From Saccoglossus kowalevskii (lineage: Eukaryota > Hemichordata > Enteropneusta > Harrimaniidae), in contig NW_003155247.1 of NCBI RefSeq assembly GCF_000003605.2, positions 52,846 to 116,845 on the forward strand: DNA of 64,000 nt. The letters are read 5' to 3'. The position numbers and the translations under genes were made by a program. Under the pieces are notes generated by a model, which was not told the origin of the DNA, searched no databases, and saw only the letters and a program-made list of their open reading frames with translations. Shown one piece after another: positions 4,773 through 60,716 of this stretch; the first letter of the stretch is position 1, and every line of letters starts with the position of its first letter.

Positions 4773-6475
4773 CTGAATATGAAAAAAAAGCAGAAATTGT
4801 TATTTTCAAGGCAGATTTCCTTTATTTTTTCTTTCATTTTGTTCTTTGGCGAAGGCACTTCCTTTTCCGATGCTGGCTTTGATTGTTGAGAACTTATTCA
4901 CTCCTGGGATTGACGCGCTCGGCGTTCACACACTTACAGAACAGAGACGATTAATTCAACCACAATACATTTTTTTTCGTGATTCGTGATTTAAAAGATG
5001 ATTGAGCGATTAATCGTAACTATAAAGCACAAATACACAAATGAAAATAGTATCCCGCTGTAAAGGCAGTGATTTTGGAGAACAATGAAAACGATCAAAC
5101 ATATCTATGCTGCCTAGACATTGAATTCATTAAATCTACACCATGATTGCCATGGTGATACCCACAATACATTGTACGAGTAAGAAAAGAATCATCAATT
5201 GGCACGTAGGAAATATTCTATTATGGTAAAATGGCAACATGTAATACATGTATGACAGTTATTAATCCCTAATCATAATCCTGGTATGGATAATCCTATT
5301 AGGCAATATGTTGCTAAGCGCTGACATTAAATCTGGATCAAAAGAAGTGGTGACAATGCCTTTGGAAGTAGTGACTCACGAATGTTAGAATTTAGCTGAA
5401 TATGTCGTTTTACTTACTGTTTCATTCATTTTTGAAATTGTTAATTTATCTAAGCTGTTTTGTTTACAGTTATGGCCTTAATGTTGTTTATAGCTACTGT
5501 CATCAGAATTTATAATTTATTTTTTGCGGCGAAATTATACCTTGGAGTGTCCCTATAACAATCTTCCCAAGGATAGAGCTTATATTGAAGAAATAGTGCA
5601 ATCAAGTATACAGTGTGGTATTTGTAGACACCGTATTCACGTGTAAAACATCGTGAATGAAAGATGAATTTTGTATGAAGATCGCATAAAAAATGTCATT
5701 TGAGTTTTGTAAACACTTAGATATAAAGAATGAAACCTCGGGTGAAAGTTGCTCATTTCTCTATAGCGCCGAAAAAGTGGATTATAAATACTAGTTTTTT
5801 TCCGTTATTTGCAATGACTGCCATAAATTCTCTGAATTGAAGCATAATAGACGGGAGAGCGTCATTCGTGTTGCAATATCGAGCCTGGTGAACGTTGTGG
5901 GCGAACATAGCATCTGTCCAGTATCTGTTATTTGACAGTAAAATTCACTGACTTTGAATAAGCATTACGCAATAAGCGAAAGAAGTTCATAATAATATAA
6001 ATTATCCAATATTTGTTTGGCATAGTTCGTACAATACATTCAATCGTATACAGCTCTCGTTTGGATTCGGAAAGATGAATTAAATGACGTGATCCTATTT
6101 GCGTCGCGTGACGTGAATACCGATGTAGCGTAGCTACATAATAAAACTCACGTAAACATAGAACGTCATTCCGCGCGTGAAATGGATCAAGTGTGAACAA
6201 CGTGCGCAGACGATAACGGAAAATGTTAACGCTTGGTGCGATACTTTGTTGTGGCTTTTTGTTTATTGCCTGAACAAAGTTATTGCTATTACATTATCTC
6301 AACTTCACGAATACGTCTGCCCCTATTTTAGTTTTTGTGTACTTGTTTGTTCGATTCGAATATATGAATAATTAATTGCATTACGTATTGCTTAGTGACG
6401 TAATCTTAAAATGAATGCTATACGATTGGGCACCATGTACAGACATGTTGACAATGTGTACGGCATGGCTTTTTT
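4773..6475. other. non-coding stretch, nothing recognised
   Basis: This is AT-rich unique sequence with scattered short open frames (up to 90 codons, 5928-6200 minus) that show no domain or plausible splice structure. I see no repeat array or RNA gene. Confidence 0.6.
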
Positions 6476-6936
6476 TCGTTCCAACATAATACACCGAGAG
6501 ACCACTCGTTCAAACGTGAACTATTCTGTGTACCCTTGTTCGAACAAAATGAATTCAGTGCCTCCGAGTCACCGACCAAGCATAATTTATTCAATGCCTC
6601 CTCGTTCAAGCATAATGTATTTAGAGCACATTCGTTCCAGCATAATATATACATGACTCCTCGTTCAAATATTATTCAGTGTATCCTCATTCAAACATAA
6701 TCGAATATGTGAACCCTCGTTCTAGAATAATCTATTCAGTTAATCCTCGTTTAAACACGATCTGTTCAGTGCCTTCTCATTCCAACACGATCCATCCAGT
6801 GCATTCTCGTCCCAGCATAATCTATTCAATGCATTCTCATCCCAGAATAATCGATTCTCTGAACCCTAGTTCCGTGAATTCTCGTTCAAGTATATTCAGT
6901 GCACCCTCGTTCCAACATAACCTATTCTGTACTTAT
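6476..6936. repeat. 30-bp minisatellite, about 16 units
   Basis: Units begin TCGTTCCAACATAATC and end ATTCAGTGCATTC. Starts fall near 6476, 6506, 6537, 6567, 6602, 6632, 6661, 6687, 6717, 6747, 6777, 6807, 6837, 6867 (half unit), 6882 and 6907. The stretch 6687-6867 keeps an exact 30-base pitch, while the edges carry small indels and more substitutions, as in an ageing tandem array. Because 30 is a multiple of three, open frames run through it on both strands (6411-6656 and 6679-7011 plus, 6418-6654 minus). The plus frame spells a 10-residue repeat of the type PRSSIIYSVN. A frame change near 6656-6680 argues against a coding exon. Confidence 0.9.
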
Positions 6937-9900
6937 ACTCTGGGTAGAAAAGATTACGATAAAGGTCGACGCATTCAGTCATATCTGAAACGGGCATGTA
7001 CATGCGAGTGACATTAGTATTTCGGATATTTAGTGCTAAGTTGTGCCTATAGTAAACATACAAAACAACAGTGTCGGATTCGGGGGTTCAGGTGGCTGAC
7101 AGGAAGAATGAGTAAAACATTCTGAATCTGCCCTCTTGAAGGAAGCTTGACTGAGTTCGTAATTCGATTAGATGCAACGATTTATTGATAAAAAGCCCTT
7201 TAATGTAATCGACTTTGTAGAACTCTTCGTAATCAGTGACGACTATATTATCAGCTTTGACCTCAGTGCTGCCGACGAGAGACGCGTATTTGGTATCACG
7301 AATACTCCAAAAAGGACCTATGTTATAATATCGTCTATTTTTGTGATGTGAGTGCCAATCTATGCTCACGGGCAGTCGACATTGCGTTATACGACATCCG
7401 CAAGATGAGAAATTTAACTGTCTATCTGTCGTTGTAACGCAAGTCGTTGGAAATTTAGTTGAGTGAAATTTACGGAGGCGTAGAAATGGAGTCGTTGATT
7501 AGCCCAGACATCAAATTCCGAAGCGGCTGCCCAACCTGAAGCGCTTACGTCCCCCTCAATGTCGGACAATTTGTTGTACGACTGCTTTACATAGTGTTAT
7601 GTTGCATACATTACAACGTATACGTGCATGATGAATGGATGTCACGTCTACGTGAAGCAGATGAAACAGGACATACTGATTAACTTGTGTATTTATCATG
7701 TCATATAATATTAATCCTCGTCAAGACAGTCAAAGCTATAATGGTTTCAGTTTACTGACAGCTACTATTAATATTGACAAAGTGTCTTCTGAGTCAAGTA
7801 CTGAAATATTCGTAGTCCACAATTCGGCCACTGTGATTGTTCGTGTAAATGACTCGCGCAAATATTGTCTCTTGTTCAACATTTACCCGTTCACTATTGC
7901 TCAGTTTTGACACTGATTATATGAGTCATTTCAGTGTAACAATTGAACAACTAAAGTACTATACATATCAAAATTAAAATTACAGACTCCAACATATCCA
8001 TCTCGACATTCTAGTCAAAAAAGGTCACATTCAGAACCTGTTCCCTAAAACCAGGGCGACACATCGATATATTTCCGTCTTGTAATGTGACAAGTCAACT
8101 TCGGCAGTGAAGTAGGTTGTGTATAATATTACAGACTCATATTAGTGGCCTTGTACTCATCAAGTGTGCTTAATTATCTGTCTACATGGCTAACGAACCG
8201 ATGTATATCAGTTATTGGACGCTCGCCAATTCAAAGGAACGCTGATAAATAACTCTTAATCGCGACCTGTTTTTCGATGTTTCCTTTCTCAGCTCAAAAT
8301 TATATCAATATAGGCATTATTATTTTGAGCTTCCTCCCTCTGTACTTATACATCAATGAACAGATTATCCACGACTTCGGCTTTATAGTGAGGTTGAAGG
8401 GAATTCAGTGAAGTTTTGCGCAGTCGCAGTTGTTTCTCTCTCAGAGGACGTAATTAGATGCATTGGTGCATTGGTGCAGAGAGATAAGCGTGGGTCGGTG
8501 GAATGACCGCATTGAATGCCCTCCGAGATATGGAAGAGAATGAAAGTGAGGAACTTAGGTAAAGATGGGCAAATTATGGAGTCAGGCGGCTGGAAAGTTT
8601 GTCATATACTGCATATGTTGGTATTCAAAATATCTGGTGCGTCATCATTATGCAACAATATGCAGACATGTTAATTAATTTAATTTTATGGTAATTTAAG
8701 CATTTGAGAGTCCATTTCACTTGTTGATGTCCTTCCCTATCAGATACTTCTTTATATGATCTATCCAATGAAAAATAACTAAAACAAACTTTGCGTGATT
8801 TACCCAGAAACGGAGCAGATGGCTGGGAAGTGTTTGATAAGGACATTTTGGTAAAATTAACCAAACATTGCCTGAACGAGTCCAACAGATTCATATATGT
8901 GTCGTCAACGTGTTCAACAACTCAACAATTTGCCTGTTTTCAGCTTCAAACACAACGCGGATGAATATTATGGTTGATCCTTATCATTTCCGGATCCGGT
9001 ATTGTGTTTTTAGTGATGATGAATATTTCAGTGTTACAGTGGGATACCATTTAATGCTAACCTGAAAAAGTCGTCGGGTCATCTTAGTGTATATTTTGCT
9101 CTGCAATCAAGAAGAGAAATGATATAAGGTATATTCTCAGATGATACAATCGGAGACACAATGGCGTTCTCTTAATCGTGTTGTTCTCGCTTCACCTATT
9201 AATTGTGTCAGTATGGCCCATGGGACTTGTTTTATCAAGTATAATCAGTTTGTAGATCATGCCCTCAATTTTAACACGGAAAAACAAAGCTAAATGTATT
9301 TTTCGTGTGAGACAGTTTCATCATTCCGAAAGAAGAGGATGGATGTGAGCAAGACAAGAATTGTAACATCTTTTTCCAAGGAAATCGAGTTTATGAAAAA
9401 GTTTATATAGCTTTTTATTTGAACGATCTTGACAGGACTAGAAGGCACGAGCAAAATGATTAAAGCACCATTACGAATACTAACTGTTGCGACTCAATCT
9501 GGATATGACTTGAATTGTGGATCAGGAATGGTACCATAACTTATAGAATTGTTGTTTTTTTCATTTATTCAGGATTCCATAGGGTTTTTAGAAAACATTC
9601 ACAACCAAAATGTTATGTACGTGACAACACCCCACCCCTCCGATTGAGAGTGGAACATTCCTCCCTGGGTCTTTCCACATAAAGTGCCTATGTTTATACA
9701 TTTATTATGTGCTAAGTCGAGTTGCGGTATATACTAGTATGCCGTTAAGTTGCCGTCGGAGTATATCCCACCTCCATGGGACAAGACCCTTAGAATAAGA
9801 GAGGTCAAGGCAATGGTTTGGGGTTAAGTACTTTCAGCGCAAGAAATGGGCACCGGTGGCCGCAATAACGAGCTCGACTCTGCTGAACAACACGCGGGGG

Positions 9901-16472: not shown

Positions 16473-16512
16473 CTGTATGTCTGTCCGTCCGTCCGTCCGT
16501 CTGTTTGTTTGT
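16473..16512. repeat. TCTG/TCCG/TTTG tetranucleotide repeat
   Basis: A short run of GTCTGTCCGTCCGTCCGTC followed by TGTTTGTTTGTC. It directly abuts the first copy of the 235-bp tandem duplication and may have helped start that duplication. Confidence 0.8.
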
Positions 16513-16982
16513 CAGCCTGTCTTTCCTATCAGATCTTCCTATTAAATTCGTTATTATTAATATGTAACGATTTGAGTGCAGTATTTTCCAACTTTTACAC
16601 AACGAATATCATTATTTGTAGCCCCTCTCATTCTCGCTGGCTACTATTAATATGTCACCGCCGAGTCACTAAAGACCGTCGAACTAAATCGACATATATA
16701 CTTTTACAGCTTTCCAAGAAACGTATTCTAGACATTCAATCACAGATCAGCCTGTCTTTCCTGTCAGGTCTTCCTATTAAACTCGTTATTATTACTATGT
16801 AACGATTTGAGTGCAGTTTTTTTCAACTTTTACACAACGAATATCATTATTCGTAGCCCCTCTCATTCTCGCTGACTACTATTAATATGTCACCGCCGAG
16901 TCACTAAAGACCGTCGAACCAAATCTACATATATACTTTTACAGCTTTCCAAGAAACGTATTCTAGACATTCAATAACAGAT
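16513..16982. repeat. tandem duplication, two copies of 235 bp
   Basis: Copy one (16513-16747) and copy two (16748-16982) both begin CAGCCTGTCTTTCCT and end TTCAATNACAGAT. They align without gaps, with about 11 substitutions by eye (about 95% identity). Each copy contains ACAACGAATATCATTATT, AGCCCCTCTCATTCTCGCTG and CACCGCCGAGTCACTAAAG. No coding potential is conserved between copies: short frames cover parts of copy one but stop early. The level of divergence points to a fairly recent local event. Confidence 0.95.
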
Positions 16983-20296: not shown

Positions 20297-20698
20297 GCAT
20301 TGTAATTGGTCAGAGTTTTGAAAATGAATAAAGAGAGTTTGAGTTGGTCTTGGCGAATACTCCACGACAGGGCAGTCCTGGAGAGACTTGGGGCGAGCCT
20401 TGACGCAGTCTAAGAGAGTCTTGGGTCAGCCTTGCGATATAGTCTTGGGGATTTTTCCCCAGGGCGCTGTGTCTTATAGAGTGCTCCAAAAGATCGACTA
20501 AGACGAGAGTTGAAACGTATTTCGTTGTGTGTGTCTTATTTGACTGTAAAGTTAAAGTGACTTTCCCGATCCCGTACCTCGAGGGGACGAGATAGAGAGA
20601 CGAGACGAGTTTCCCCCCTGACACGTGTGGAGAACCCCGAGAGTAGGAAGATTTCCCCCCTGATACTGCACTGCAAAAAAAAAAAAAAGCATTTGCAA
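20297..20698 (+). mobile_element. poly-A-tailed retroposon insertion, about 380 bp
   Basis: The body (about 20306-20674) is G/C-richer than its surroundings and ends in 14 consecutive A bases (20675-20688). GCATTTGCAA directly after the tail (20689-20698) resembles GCATTGTAA before the body (20297-20305), a plausible decayed target-site duplication. The insert interrupts the reverse-transcriptase remnant that continues on the right. Within the body the phrase TTTCCCCCCTGA occurs twice (near 20610 and 20652). The family is not recognised; a SINE or a truncated non-LTR/LTR piece are all possible. The 138-codon minus frame 20310-20726 runs through the insert and is a chance chimera. Confidence 0.5.
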
Positions 20699-20894
20699 CG
20701 GAGTAAAAAATGTTCCAGTGTTTCATCTTTTTCCTTACAATATGGGCAAGTGTAGGCTTGGTCAGAAGTAATATTTTCCCATTTCATTTTTGATATTCCA
20801 AACCGAGTGTGTAGAACTTTGCCTTCAGTTGGCCCCTCTTAAAATCTGGCACTGGGTCTATATGTGGTTCGTAGTTTGTTATCTTATTCTTGAA
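20691..20894 (-). pseudogene. non-LTR reverse transcriptase C-terminal remnant
   Basis: The minus-strand reading contains YTCPYCKEKDETLEHFLLRC (about 20754-20695), a CX2CX8HX4C zinc motif followed and preceded by residues typical of the C-terminal zf-RVT region of non-LTR retrotransposon polymerases. Upstream, KVLHTRFGISKMKWENIT continues in the same frame to about 20835. A frameshift near 20832-20838 then moves the reading to PHIDPVPDFKRG in a second frame, out to about 20894. The remnant is therefore truncated, frameshifted and cut at its 3' side by the poly-A-tailed insert. It is non-functional. The clade (CR1, L2, RTE or other) cannot be told from this fragment. Confidence 0.65.
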
Positions 20895-37921: not shown

Positions 37922-39979
37922 TAGATGGGGCAACAGTGGTAAGCAATGATTGGATGACTGTTGACGAAATTGTGCGTATTGCGATTACATTTTTTTTTAG
38001 TCTTCGAACAAATTGTGTAAAGATTGCTGATTACCCTCAAAATTGCGAGTATCACATCGAATATAGGGGCGTCTGCTACCATAGTGATACACCATTGAAC
38101 GAATAAAATTGTTTCAATTCAAATTGGCCCAGTTTTGAGAATAACAACTGACTACCCATAGTATTAAAGATATAAATTTCGTGTTGACTGCGTTATTGAA
38201 GGCATTTAAAGAGACGTTGTGATCATGTAGCTGCTGGTTAGTTTGACGATCAGATATGAACATAAAAACATAAATGTTGCGTTTTTTTTTTGCCAGGGAC
38301 CACGTAATTGAATCTACGTATTCATAACAAATAAAAGTACCAGAACGCAAATATTGTATTTTTACAATCCATAGACGTTCCGTAGGTATTGTGCGTATCA
38401 ATATAGATCGACACGCATTTTTCACCTGATACCAAGGTGGTCCATGACTATTTATGCTTGCAATTGATATTGTTATATTCTGAATATACTCCAAGTCCCC
38501 GGTGACTTCACATTCACGGGTAATCAGTCGGCAACGTCTCAACTGACGCAAAAGCAAGTAGGATTGTTTGCAGAACACCGTTTTTGTATACCGTATCTCT
38601 TCTTATTTTTGTTCTTTTTCTTCAACCTTCCACAATCTTTGCGAATCACGTACCCCGAAATATGGCCAGGGAAGACAGCCTAGAGTGTACCCTAAGAATC
38701 AGCGCACATGCAATTCCTTTACAATTCTTCTCTTCCGTAAAAAAAATCGACTCGAATTTATGCTTGTTTTTAAAATACAGTCATTTTTGACAGGTTCTGA
38801 TAAAGCCCATAGTACGGTGCACGCCCCTTGAAAATACAACCACTTTTTTATTAAGACGTACACGAGCGAACACTTAATACACTGAATCAGCCTGTCAGTA
38901 ATGTCATTGCCACAGACGACTATAAACCCAGCTTAGCTGATCTCAACGAGAGTTCATCTAACGTGCATTTAAGAAAAAAAATAGAGCACTAGTAACAAGA
39001 ACATATATTTACGACGACATATTATTTTTAATTTACAGTGAGTGTAAATAGGTCCAACTGTATCTGCGTGCTATTTTTTTCTTAAATATGCCCCATTATT
39101 CCTTAGTGTGCTGACTTATAAAAATAGAACGTGTTATCGTGAATGCCGTACACATAGGCAATGCGTCATAGTTAATAACAGTCATAACTAGACTTCACCG
39201 TGATGACGTAACAGTATTCTATTGCGGAGGCAATCTGTGTTTATAATAAACCGCCCTTTGTTATACGCTAGCCGTGTCTATCTTGAATTATCGACTCGGG
39301 TGGTATGCATGATATAAATATATATACATCTACCATAAAATTGAAAAAAAAATCGCATTTTGACAAATACAAGTAGTTGCGACGTTTCGAGTTGTTTTAT
39401 AATTCCTCTGTGTTTCTTGTCTTTCTAAGAATTTGTTTCATTTTAAAGGATTATTTTATTGCATGTTTATAAAACACAGTTTGCCTCAAAGGTAAGTCGG
39501 TGCTGAGAATCGATGTCTGTCTATATAAGGCAAACATGTTGGCAACCTGCTTGAGGGTGAGGTACTTCCTGGCCTTCTCGGTATTAGTACACAATGCGAC
39601 GCTATTACAAGAATGGAAAGCCTACACGACCACATCAAGCACGACACGCCGTTATTGTTGTGCGCGGAAGCGTTTTTTATTGGCGAACATATACGAAAGG
39701 AAGCAGGTACATTGCCATCGGAATAACACACGGCATGGATCTGACGTACACAATGTAGAATAAATATATAATGGAAAACTAAATCGTCTGATGTGTATTT
39801 CGCTAAGTGTTCGGGCGACTCTCCCTGCCATTCCATGTATGTGCTTGGGTAATCTATAAAAAATAAGCTTCTTGTCCTCGACTTGAAAATCGGGAGGATG
39901 ATTTCCGCCGATGAAATATACCGTTGGCCCAATTGATGGTTGAAAAGATGAACTGGATTCTTGGCTGATGCTGTTGCTA
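37922..39979. other. non-coding stretch downstream of mir-137
   Basis: On the minus strand this region is downstream of the microRNA hairpin and would hold the rest of any pri-miR-137 transcript. No polyadenylation site can be chosen with confidence because AATAAA-like words are frequent in such AT-rich DNA. The 175-codon minus frame 39486-40013, the longest in the window, starts inside the mature microRNA and has no recognisable domain. Confidence 0.4.
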
Positions 39980-40054
39980 GGCACCAGCTACGTGTATTCT
40001 CAAGCAATAACATCAGGTATGTATTATCAACCCGAGAATACGCGTCACCGGCAC
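39980..40054 (-). ncRNA. mir-137 microRNA precursor hairpin
   Basis: miR-137 is a conserved animal microRNA, best known from neurons, that represses target mRNAs in the cytoplasm through Argonaute. On the minus strand the 3' arm (39988-40010) contains TATTGCTTGAGAATACACG, the miR-137 core with its seed. The 5' arm (about 40022-40046) reads CGCGTATTCTCGGGTTGATA and pairs with it: GTATTCTC/GAGAATAC first, then a wobble-rich upper stem with one bulged T, closing on a loop around CATACCTGA. The lower stem continues outward with GTGCCGG against CTGGTGC. The layout (mature product in the 3' arm, 5' arm of the form GGTGACGNGTATTCT-GGGT-GATAATAC) agrees with the vertebrate precursor as I remember it. 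The spelling GAGAATACAC rather than AAGAATACGC is the invertebrate form. Exact Drosha and Dicer ends cannot be fixed from sequence. Confidence 0.96.
39988..40010 (-). ncRNA. mature miR-137 (3' arm)
   Basis: The guide strand starts with TTATTGC or TATTGCT, depending on the 5' end used. Animals differ by one base at this end, which shifts the seed, so small-RNA reads are needed to choose. The 3' end is around CACGTAG. All core positions of the invertebrate form appear intact. Confidence 0.93.
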
Positions 40055-40776
40055 GTGCATGATTCCCTTCACAAGTTCTCTCCGCATCTTACTCTTTGGC
40101 TCACTGCTTTTCCCGATTCACCGCAAACATCACCATTCTCGGCGTCGCCACCGATAAAACTCAACACCGGACAGAAAGGTTAAAAACAGGTCCATCTACA
40201 CACTCAATCTGACATTTGCGGCTGTTATATCCTCGGCCCACTCAATTGAAATTTCGTTTCACCCCCAATAAACCTACAATTATTATCCTTGTCCTTTGGG
40301 AGCTCGGCAAAAGTATCATAGCATACCCGACTTAGATCGAATTTATGAATATTTCTAAAGAAGGCGATTTACCGTTCCACGAAGTTTTCAAAAAATTAAA
40401 GAAAGAAAGAAAGAAAGAAAGGGAACGTTTTAGGTCGCGCTTTTATGATATCACAATACAACAACAAAGAGAAATACTAACCGATGTTTATCGCAATTAC
40501 GTGTGCCGTGCTTGCTCAATAAATACGGGAGAACGCTGAATGATGAGATGATTTATACTAGCACGAACACGCAATGCGATGATGTCAAATGATAAGGATT
40601 GACAAAAGTATTGCTATCGCAGAAAATTAGTATTTCTCGCATATATTCACATTTTTGGTCAAGTCTGAAACAGACGTTGACTGTGGATATCAATTAAACA
40701 CACTCATACAGCGCACAAGCACTCCACAAAAGAACATATTTAAGACAAATGGATATTAGAAAAATAATAGACTTAC
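40055..40776. other. non-coding stretch between hairpin and upstream candidate exon
   Basis: On the minus strand this would be intron or pri-miRNA leader. It contains a short AAGA repeat near 40403-40422 (AAAGAAAGAAAGAAAG). The 64-codon plus frame 40345-40539 contains that repeat and is not convincing. No second microRNA hairpin is seen. Confidence 0.45.
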
Positions 40777-60666: not shown

Positions 60667-60716
60667 NNNNNNNNNNNNNNNNNNNNNNNNNNNNNNNNNN
60701 NNNNNNNNNNNNNNNN
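60667..60716. other. assembly gap, 50 N
   Basis: Fifty consecutive unknown bases. The open frame that spans it (60606-60788) is an artefact of reading through N. Confidence 0.99.

Follow-up and report, generated by a model that had tools for sequence, protein, structure and literature searches.

We found that a hairpin on the minus strand of the DNA analysed here (the window, 64,000 nucleotides, corresponding to C4451:52846-116845) is almost certainly the mir-137 gene of a Saccoglossus acorn worm, very probably S. kowalevskii, and that it is single in the sequence searched. The minus strand matches the Rfam family RF00694 (mir-137) at 39983-40052 with 80.2 bits (gathering score 56.7, E 3.6e-16), and the alignment covers model positions 1-72 of 72, with no pair marked as broken in its printed form. 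This is the sole match over the gathering score in an Rfam search of the whole window. When E values up to 1 are admitted, one further row is listed, the antisense of the same place with 33.5 bits; the tool leaves a single overlapping same-clan match out of this listing.

The locus folds into one hairpin whose 32 pairs are arranged as 8+3+12+9 and whose lower stem extends past the product, forming a single stem-loop of the ~70-80 bases typical of the family. On the minus strand, positions 39978-40057 fold to -35.2 kcal/mol (z -5.58) and the longer segment 39970-40065 to -37.3 kcal/mol (z -4.54), neither fold being equalled by any of 200 shuffles, and the hairpin ranks as the most stable among 12,758 80-base windows taken in steps of 10 on both strands, none of them containing N. 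A previous sequence-only reading had called a mir-137 gene at 39980-40054, with a 5' arm that pairs over more than 30 positions including the lower stem, and had pointed to 39970-40065 as the segment to fold. The call is correct, as indicated by the full-length family match together with the identity of the 22-base product (see below); the pairing and the fold agree with what was described, and the coordinates are accurate to about one base.

The mir-137 family is widespread in bilaterians. Its product lies in the 3' arm with the full miR-137 core, as the same reading had it: here, this is TATTGCTTGAGAATACACGTAG, running from 40009 to 39988 with the seed AUUGCUU. The 23-mer TTATTGCTTGAGAATACACGTAG, which contains the product, is present at a single place of the window when up to three mismatches are tolerated and is found in none of 100 shuffles, and its first 20 bases have a single exact occurrence in the 572-Mb assembly, where a reversed control pattern has none. 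The 21-base core of the product gave no matches in the viral contigs, a result that carries no information on the locus. Predicted ends of the two arms are given in Table 1, together with two candidate processing motifs at the positions usual for them. A given dinucleotide is expected at a given place by chance roughly 1 time in 16, which bears on the basal UG, and CNNC starts at 12, 15, 18, and 21 bases downstream of the 3' arm product. Both motifs are named among those of primary microRNAs in the available part of PMC10954719.

Table 1. Coordinates of the mir-137 locus and of other features discussed in the text. Positions are those of the window, except where a locus (L005, L015, L020) is named.
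Feature	Position	Strand	Basis
mir-137 precursor hairpin including lower stem	39981..40054	-	Fold (32 pairs) and RF00694 over 39983-40052
Predicted mature miR-137-3p TATTGCTTGAGAATACACGTAG, invertebrate start	39988..40009	-	Sequence and letters of spu-miR-137 (excerpt of PMC4669494); predicted ends
Predicted 5' arm (star) ACGCGTATTCTCGGGTTGATAAT	40023..40045	-	2-base 3' overhang on the fold
Candidate basal UG motif	40058..40059	-	14 bases before the predicted 5' arm start; weak alone
Candidate CNNC motif	39967..39970	-	Begins 18 bases downstream of the product; weak alone
TGF-beta ligand frames	L005:4315-4728 and 6328-7239	+	PF00019, E 6.2e-26
Sub-threshold mir-137 match on C2793	L015:1496-1578	+	26.8 bits; hairpin z -3.32, product absent
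mir-2012 locus, same assembly	L020:1490-1566	+	Rfam RF03980, 91.4 bits, just over the cut-off of 90

A vertebrate-type start would fall at 40010, one base upstream of the invertebrate start at 40009 on the minus strand. With hsa-miR-137, the acorn worm locus has in common the family, the seed region, and a product in the 3' arm. The differences are those described in the accessible text of PMC4669494: vertebrate miR-137 has an extra first base, and the two types also differ at base nine (invertebrate numbering) or ten (vertebrate numbering), whereas the acorn worm locus carries the letters of spu-miR-137. These letters, which that paper prints for a sea cucumber following the record of the sea urchin, are identical to ours over all 22 bases of the mature sequence, a comparison that concerns another phylum and the product alone, and the mature sequence is therefore of the invertebrate type, as had been proposed. 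In the full-text literature, TATTGCTTGAGAATACACGTAG appears in ten papers, of which, going by the titles, one is on a sea cucumber and nine are on insects (four on mosquito, two on Drosophila, and one each on whitefly, silkworm, and rootworm), and this shared occurrence in insects and a sea cucumber indicates an invertebrate type without allowing a choice among phyla. The same 22-base sequence is counted once in the text available for Drosophila miR-137-3p (PMC12338917), a likeness to a distant host that again rests on the product.

The hairpin sits within a stop-to-stop frame of 200 aa (39486-40088, minus strand), the longest in the window, and this raises the question of whether this frame might be a protein exon and the hairpin incidental to it. 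Its length speaks for such a reading, as frames of at least 200 aa were reached in just one of 60 Markov-resampled windows. However, a Pfam scan of the frame gave nothing at E values up to 1, its G+C content by codon position is flat (0.45/0.47/0.42), and the RNA family match accounts for the conserved part without a protein; we consider a coding stretch extremely improbable, and the description of this frame in the sequence-only reading as the longest chance frame fits these results. Just as little credit is due to a product acting from the opposite strand, that is, an antisense mir-137. The plus strand does align to RF00694 with an E value of 0.0037, because the stem of mir-137 is nearly palindromic, but the score of this alignment stays under the gathering score, and the same 70 bases fold to -18.2 kcal/mol on the plus strand versus -31.4 kcal/mol on the minus strand. 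Slightly less remote, though still highly improbable, is a composite scenario in which the locus belongs to an acorn worm species without mir-137 annotation and its near-palindromic stem also gives a plus-strand, antisense miR-137-like product.

A further alternative to a working minus-strand mir-137 gene is that the present copy is silent or decaying, while the active gene lies elsewhere in the genome or in an assembly gap. The assembly, with 572,110,611 bases distributed over 4,830 contigs, is possibly incomplete, and it does contain two sub-threshold mir-137 matches at other places. Searching it with RF00694 (66 of 142,979 first-look candidates scored) and admitting E values up to 10, we obtained four rows, of which one is over the cut-off and corresponds to the locus on C4451. 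The remaining three are its own antisense (33.5 bits), a place on C2793 (26.8 bits, E 0.56), and a place on C1347 (23.7 bits, E 4.1). In 14 control genomes, the same search gave a match in three and a match over the cut-off in none. The C2793 place forms a hairpin (z -3.32) without the miR-137 product and is probably a chance resemblance, and the C1347 place has a product-like stretch without a fold (z -0.51, equalled by 56 of 200 shuffles). Both scores are far under 56.7 and neither place is convincing as a copy; thus, no rival copy was found in the sequence searched, though a gap might hide one, and the better-conserved second mir-137 that the earlier reading had named as grounds for rejecting its call did not emerge over the cut-off among the candidates scored. 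Moreover, the 22-base product at our locus is identical to the printed spu-miR-137 and the RF00694 alignment has no broken pair, both of which argue against decay. We therefore regard a silent copy as very unlikely, if somewhat less so than the alternatives of the preceding paragraph.

The identity of the host was addressed through the mitochondrial genome. COX1 is found once in the assembly, on C4830, a mitochondrial contig of 17,037 bases, of which 17,000 were read, COX1 being identified by search and the other genes named by eye. One strand carries COX2, ATP6, COX3, ND3, ND4L, ND4, ND5, CYTB, ND2, and ND1, with ND2 before ND1 and ND5 adjoining CYTB, and COX1 is on the opposite strand. Concerning the genetic code, the COX1 frame has ten ATA codons, and the eight that fall within the alignment to the best PDB chain (7o37_a) face Ile five times, Val twice, Leu once, and Met never. 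In 11 stop-to-stop mitochondrial frames there are 54 AAA codons, judged to be Lys by eye where examined, at sites that we presume to be conserved lysines. The only AGG in these frames falls in the stretch that extends upstream of the COX3 start, and seven codons are AGA, read as Ser by assumption. For S. kowalevskii mitochondrial DNA, the available portion of PMC3121625 reports an inversion of COX1, a transposition of ND1 or ND2, AUA as Ile, AAA as Lys, AGG absent, and AGA as Ser, and that of PMC2697986 reports AAA as Lys in Saccoglossus and ND5 adjoining cob in both hemichordates compared. C4830 is like the S. kowalevskii genome described in these excerpts in the COX1 inversion, the order of ND2 and ND1, the ND5-CYTB adjacency, ATA as Ile, AAA as Lys, and the lack of AGG outside the COX3 extension. 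The host is thus very probably an acorn worm of the genus Saccoglossus, and the species is suggested to be S. kowalevskii by this one mitochondrial contig, on which other Saccoglossus might look alike. The broader claim that the window comes from an invertebrate bilaterian is accordingly borne out, and narrowed by mitochondrial gene order and code to a Saccoglossus-type acorn worm.

Three other hosts were considered and rejected. An insect, an early candidate favoured in part by the CpG ratio of the window (1.12), was set aside in view of the mitochondrial result. The lancelet genus Asymmetron, considered because COX1 is inverted in C4830, has a published gene order unlike that of C4830: according to the accessible part of PMC2034537, a trnL-nad6 segment is inverted and cox3-nad3 has moved beside cox1, whereas C4830 has COX3 and ND3 placed between ATP6 and ND4L. 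Mitogenomes of A. lucayanum are reported at 15.1 kb, versus 17.0 kb for C4830. Against an echinoderm host stand the reading of AAA as Lys and the position of ND4L beside ND4, and this host was rejected. In addition, the assembly holds a locus for mir-2012, a marker of echinoderms and hemichordates (Table 1). The letters of miR-2012, as printed in the excerpt of PMC4669494, occur exactly and once in the assembly with one mismatch allowed, and the reversed control does not occur.

A miRBase record for sko-miR-137 (MI0010165, MIMAT0009628) is listed in Table 2 of PMC4669494, so the gene is known and the find correct but not new. Our locus resembles this S. kowalevskii entry in its family and, judging from the mitochondrial data, very probably also in its species, a likeness established by listing and not by letters. 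Should the host be S. kowalevskii, sko-mir-137 MI0010165 would be this very gene, which is then catalogued already; with a sister species as host, the locus is one more member of the family. We regard it as an ordinary, already known gene with the expected family function, correctly read. Excerpts from other papers list mir-137 in Daphnia (PMC6828783), report two copies in a spider (PMC4987109), and, for four flatworms, count it with the conserved families that escaped detection (PMC4156656), and by this last report it is loss, rather than presence, that is the notable state. The result is a correct annotation, from raw sequence, of a deeply conserved neural microRNA; it provides a landmark for the Saccoglossus genome and an aid to comparing mir-137 among deuterostomes, and by itself it resolves no open question.

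Conservation suggests that the locus is functional, and its action is likely to be seed-guided post-transcriptional repression, by analogy with the family. A non-coding transcript of the minus strand would form the hairpin, which would be cut by Drosha and Dicer, and the 3' arm product UAUUGCUUGAGAAUACACGUAG would then be loaded into an Argonaute protein. Presumably in some parts of the nervous system, the loaded miR-137 may then repress mRNAs whose sites match the seed AUUGCUU. The texts available to us present miR-137 as conserved and for the most part neural. In amphioxus it is reported in restricted cells of the cerebral vesicle and nerve cord, as well as in the mouth and gill slits, and in the annelid Platynereis in the same region as miR-7 (PMC3145563). 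For the Drosophila eye, Myc is reported as one of its targets (PMC12338917).

Concerning the surroundings of the locus, no RNA gene over the gathering score was found near mir-137 in 113,000 flanking bases (C4451 read to 176,699 of 420,950). The window has 78 frames of at least 80 aa and the flanks have 26 of at least 110 aa; Pfam scans covered 10 from each set. A gene for a TGF-beta family ligand lies at about 34.3-37.2 kb of C4451, ~55 kb from mir-137, with the propeptide and mature domain in two frames (Table 1). In vertebrates, DPYD is a neighbour of the mir-137 gene, and a literature search for mir-137/DPYD synteny gave no matches. Within the window, a frame at 20539-20838 (minus strand) has a sub-threshold match to zf-RVT (E 0.0021, 19.1 versus 27.5 bits) and is possibly the remnant of a LINE-type element. 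The window has a G+C content of 37.1% over positions 1-64000 and a CpG observed/expected ratio of 1.12, and hence no CpG depletion; a gap of 50 N lies at 60667-60716. A long imperfect tandem array of a TCTAC-like pentamer occupies positions 1-820, and a 235-base unit is tandemly duplicated at 16512-16982, in two copies with 95% matches.
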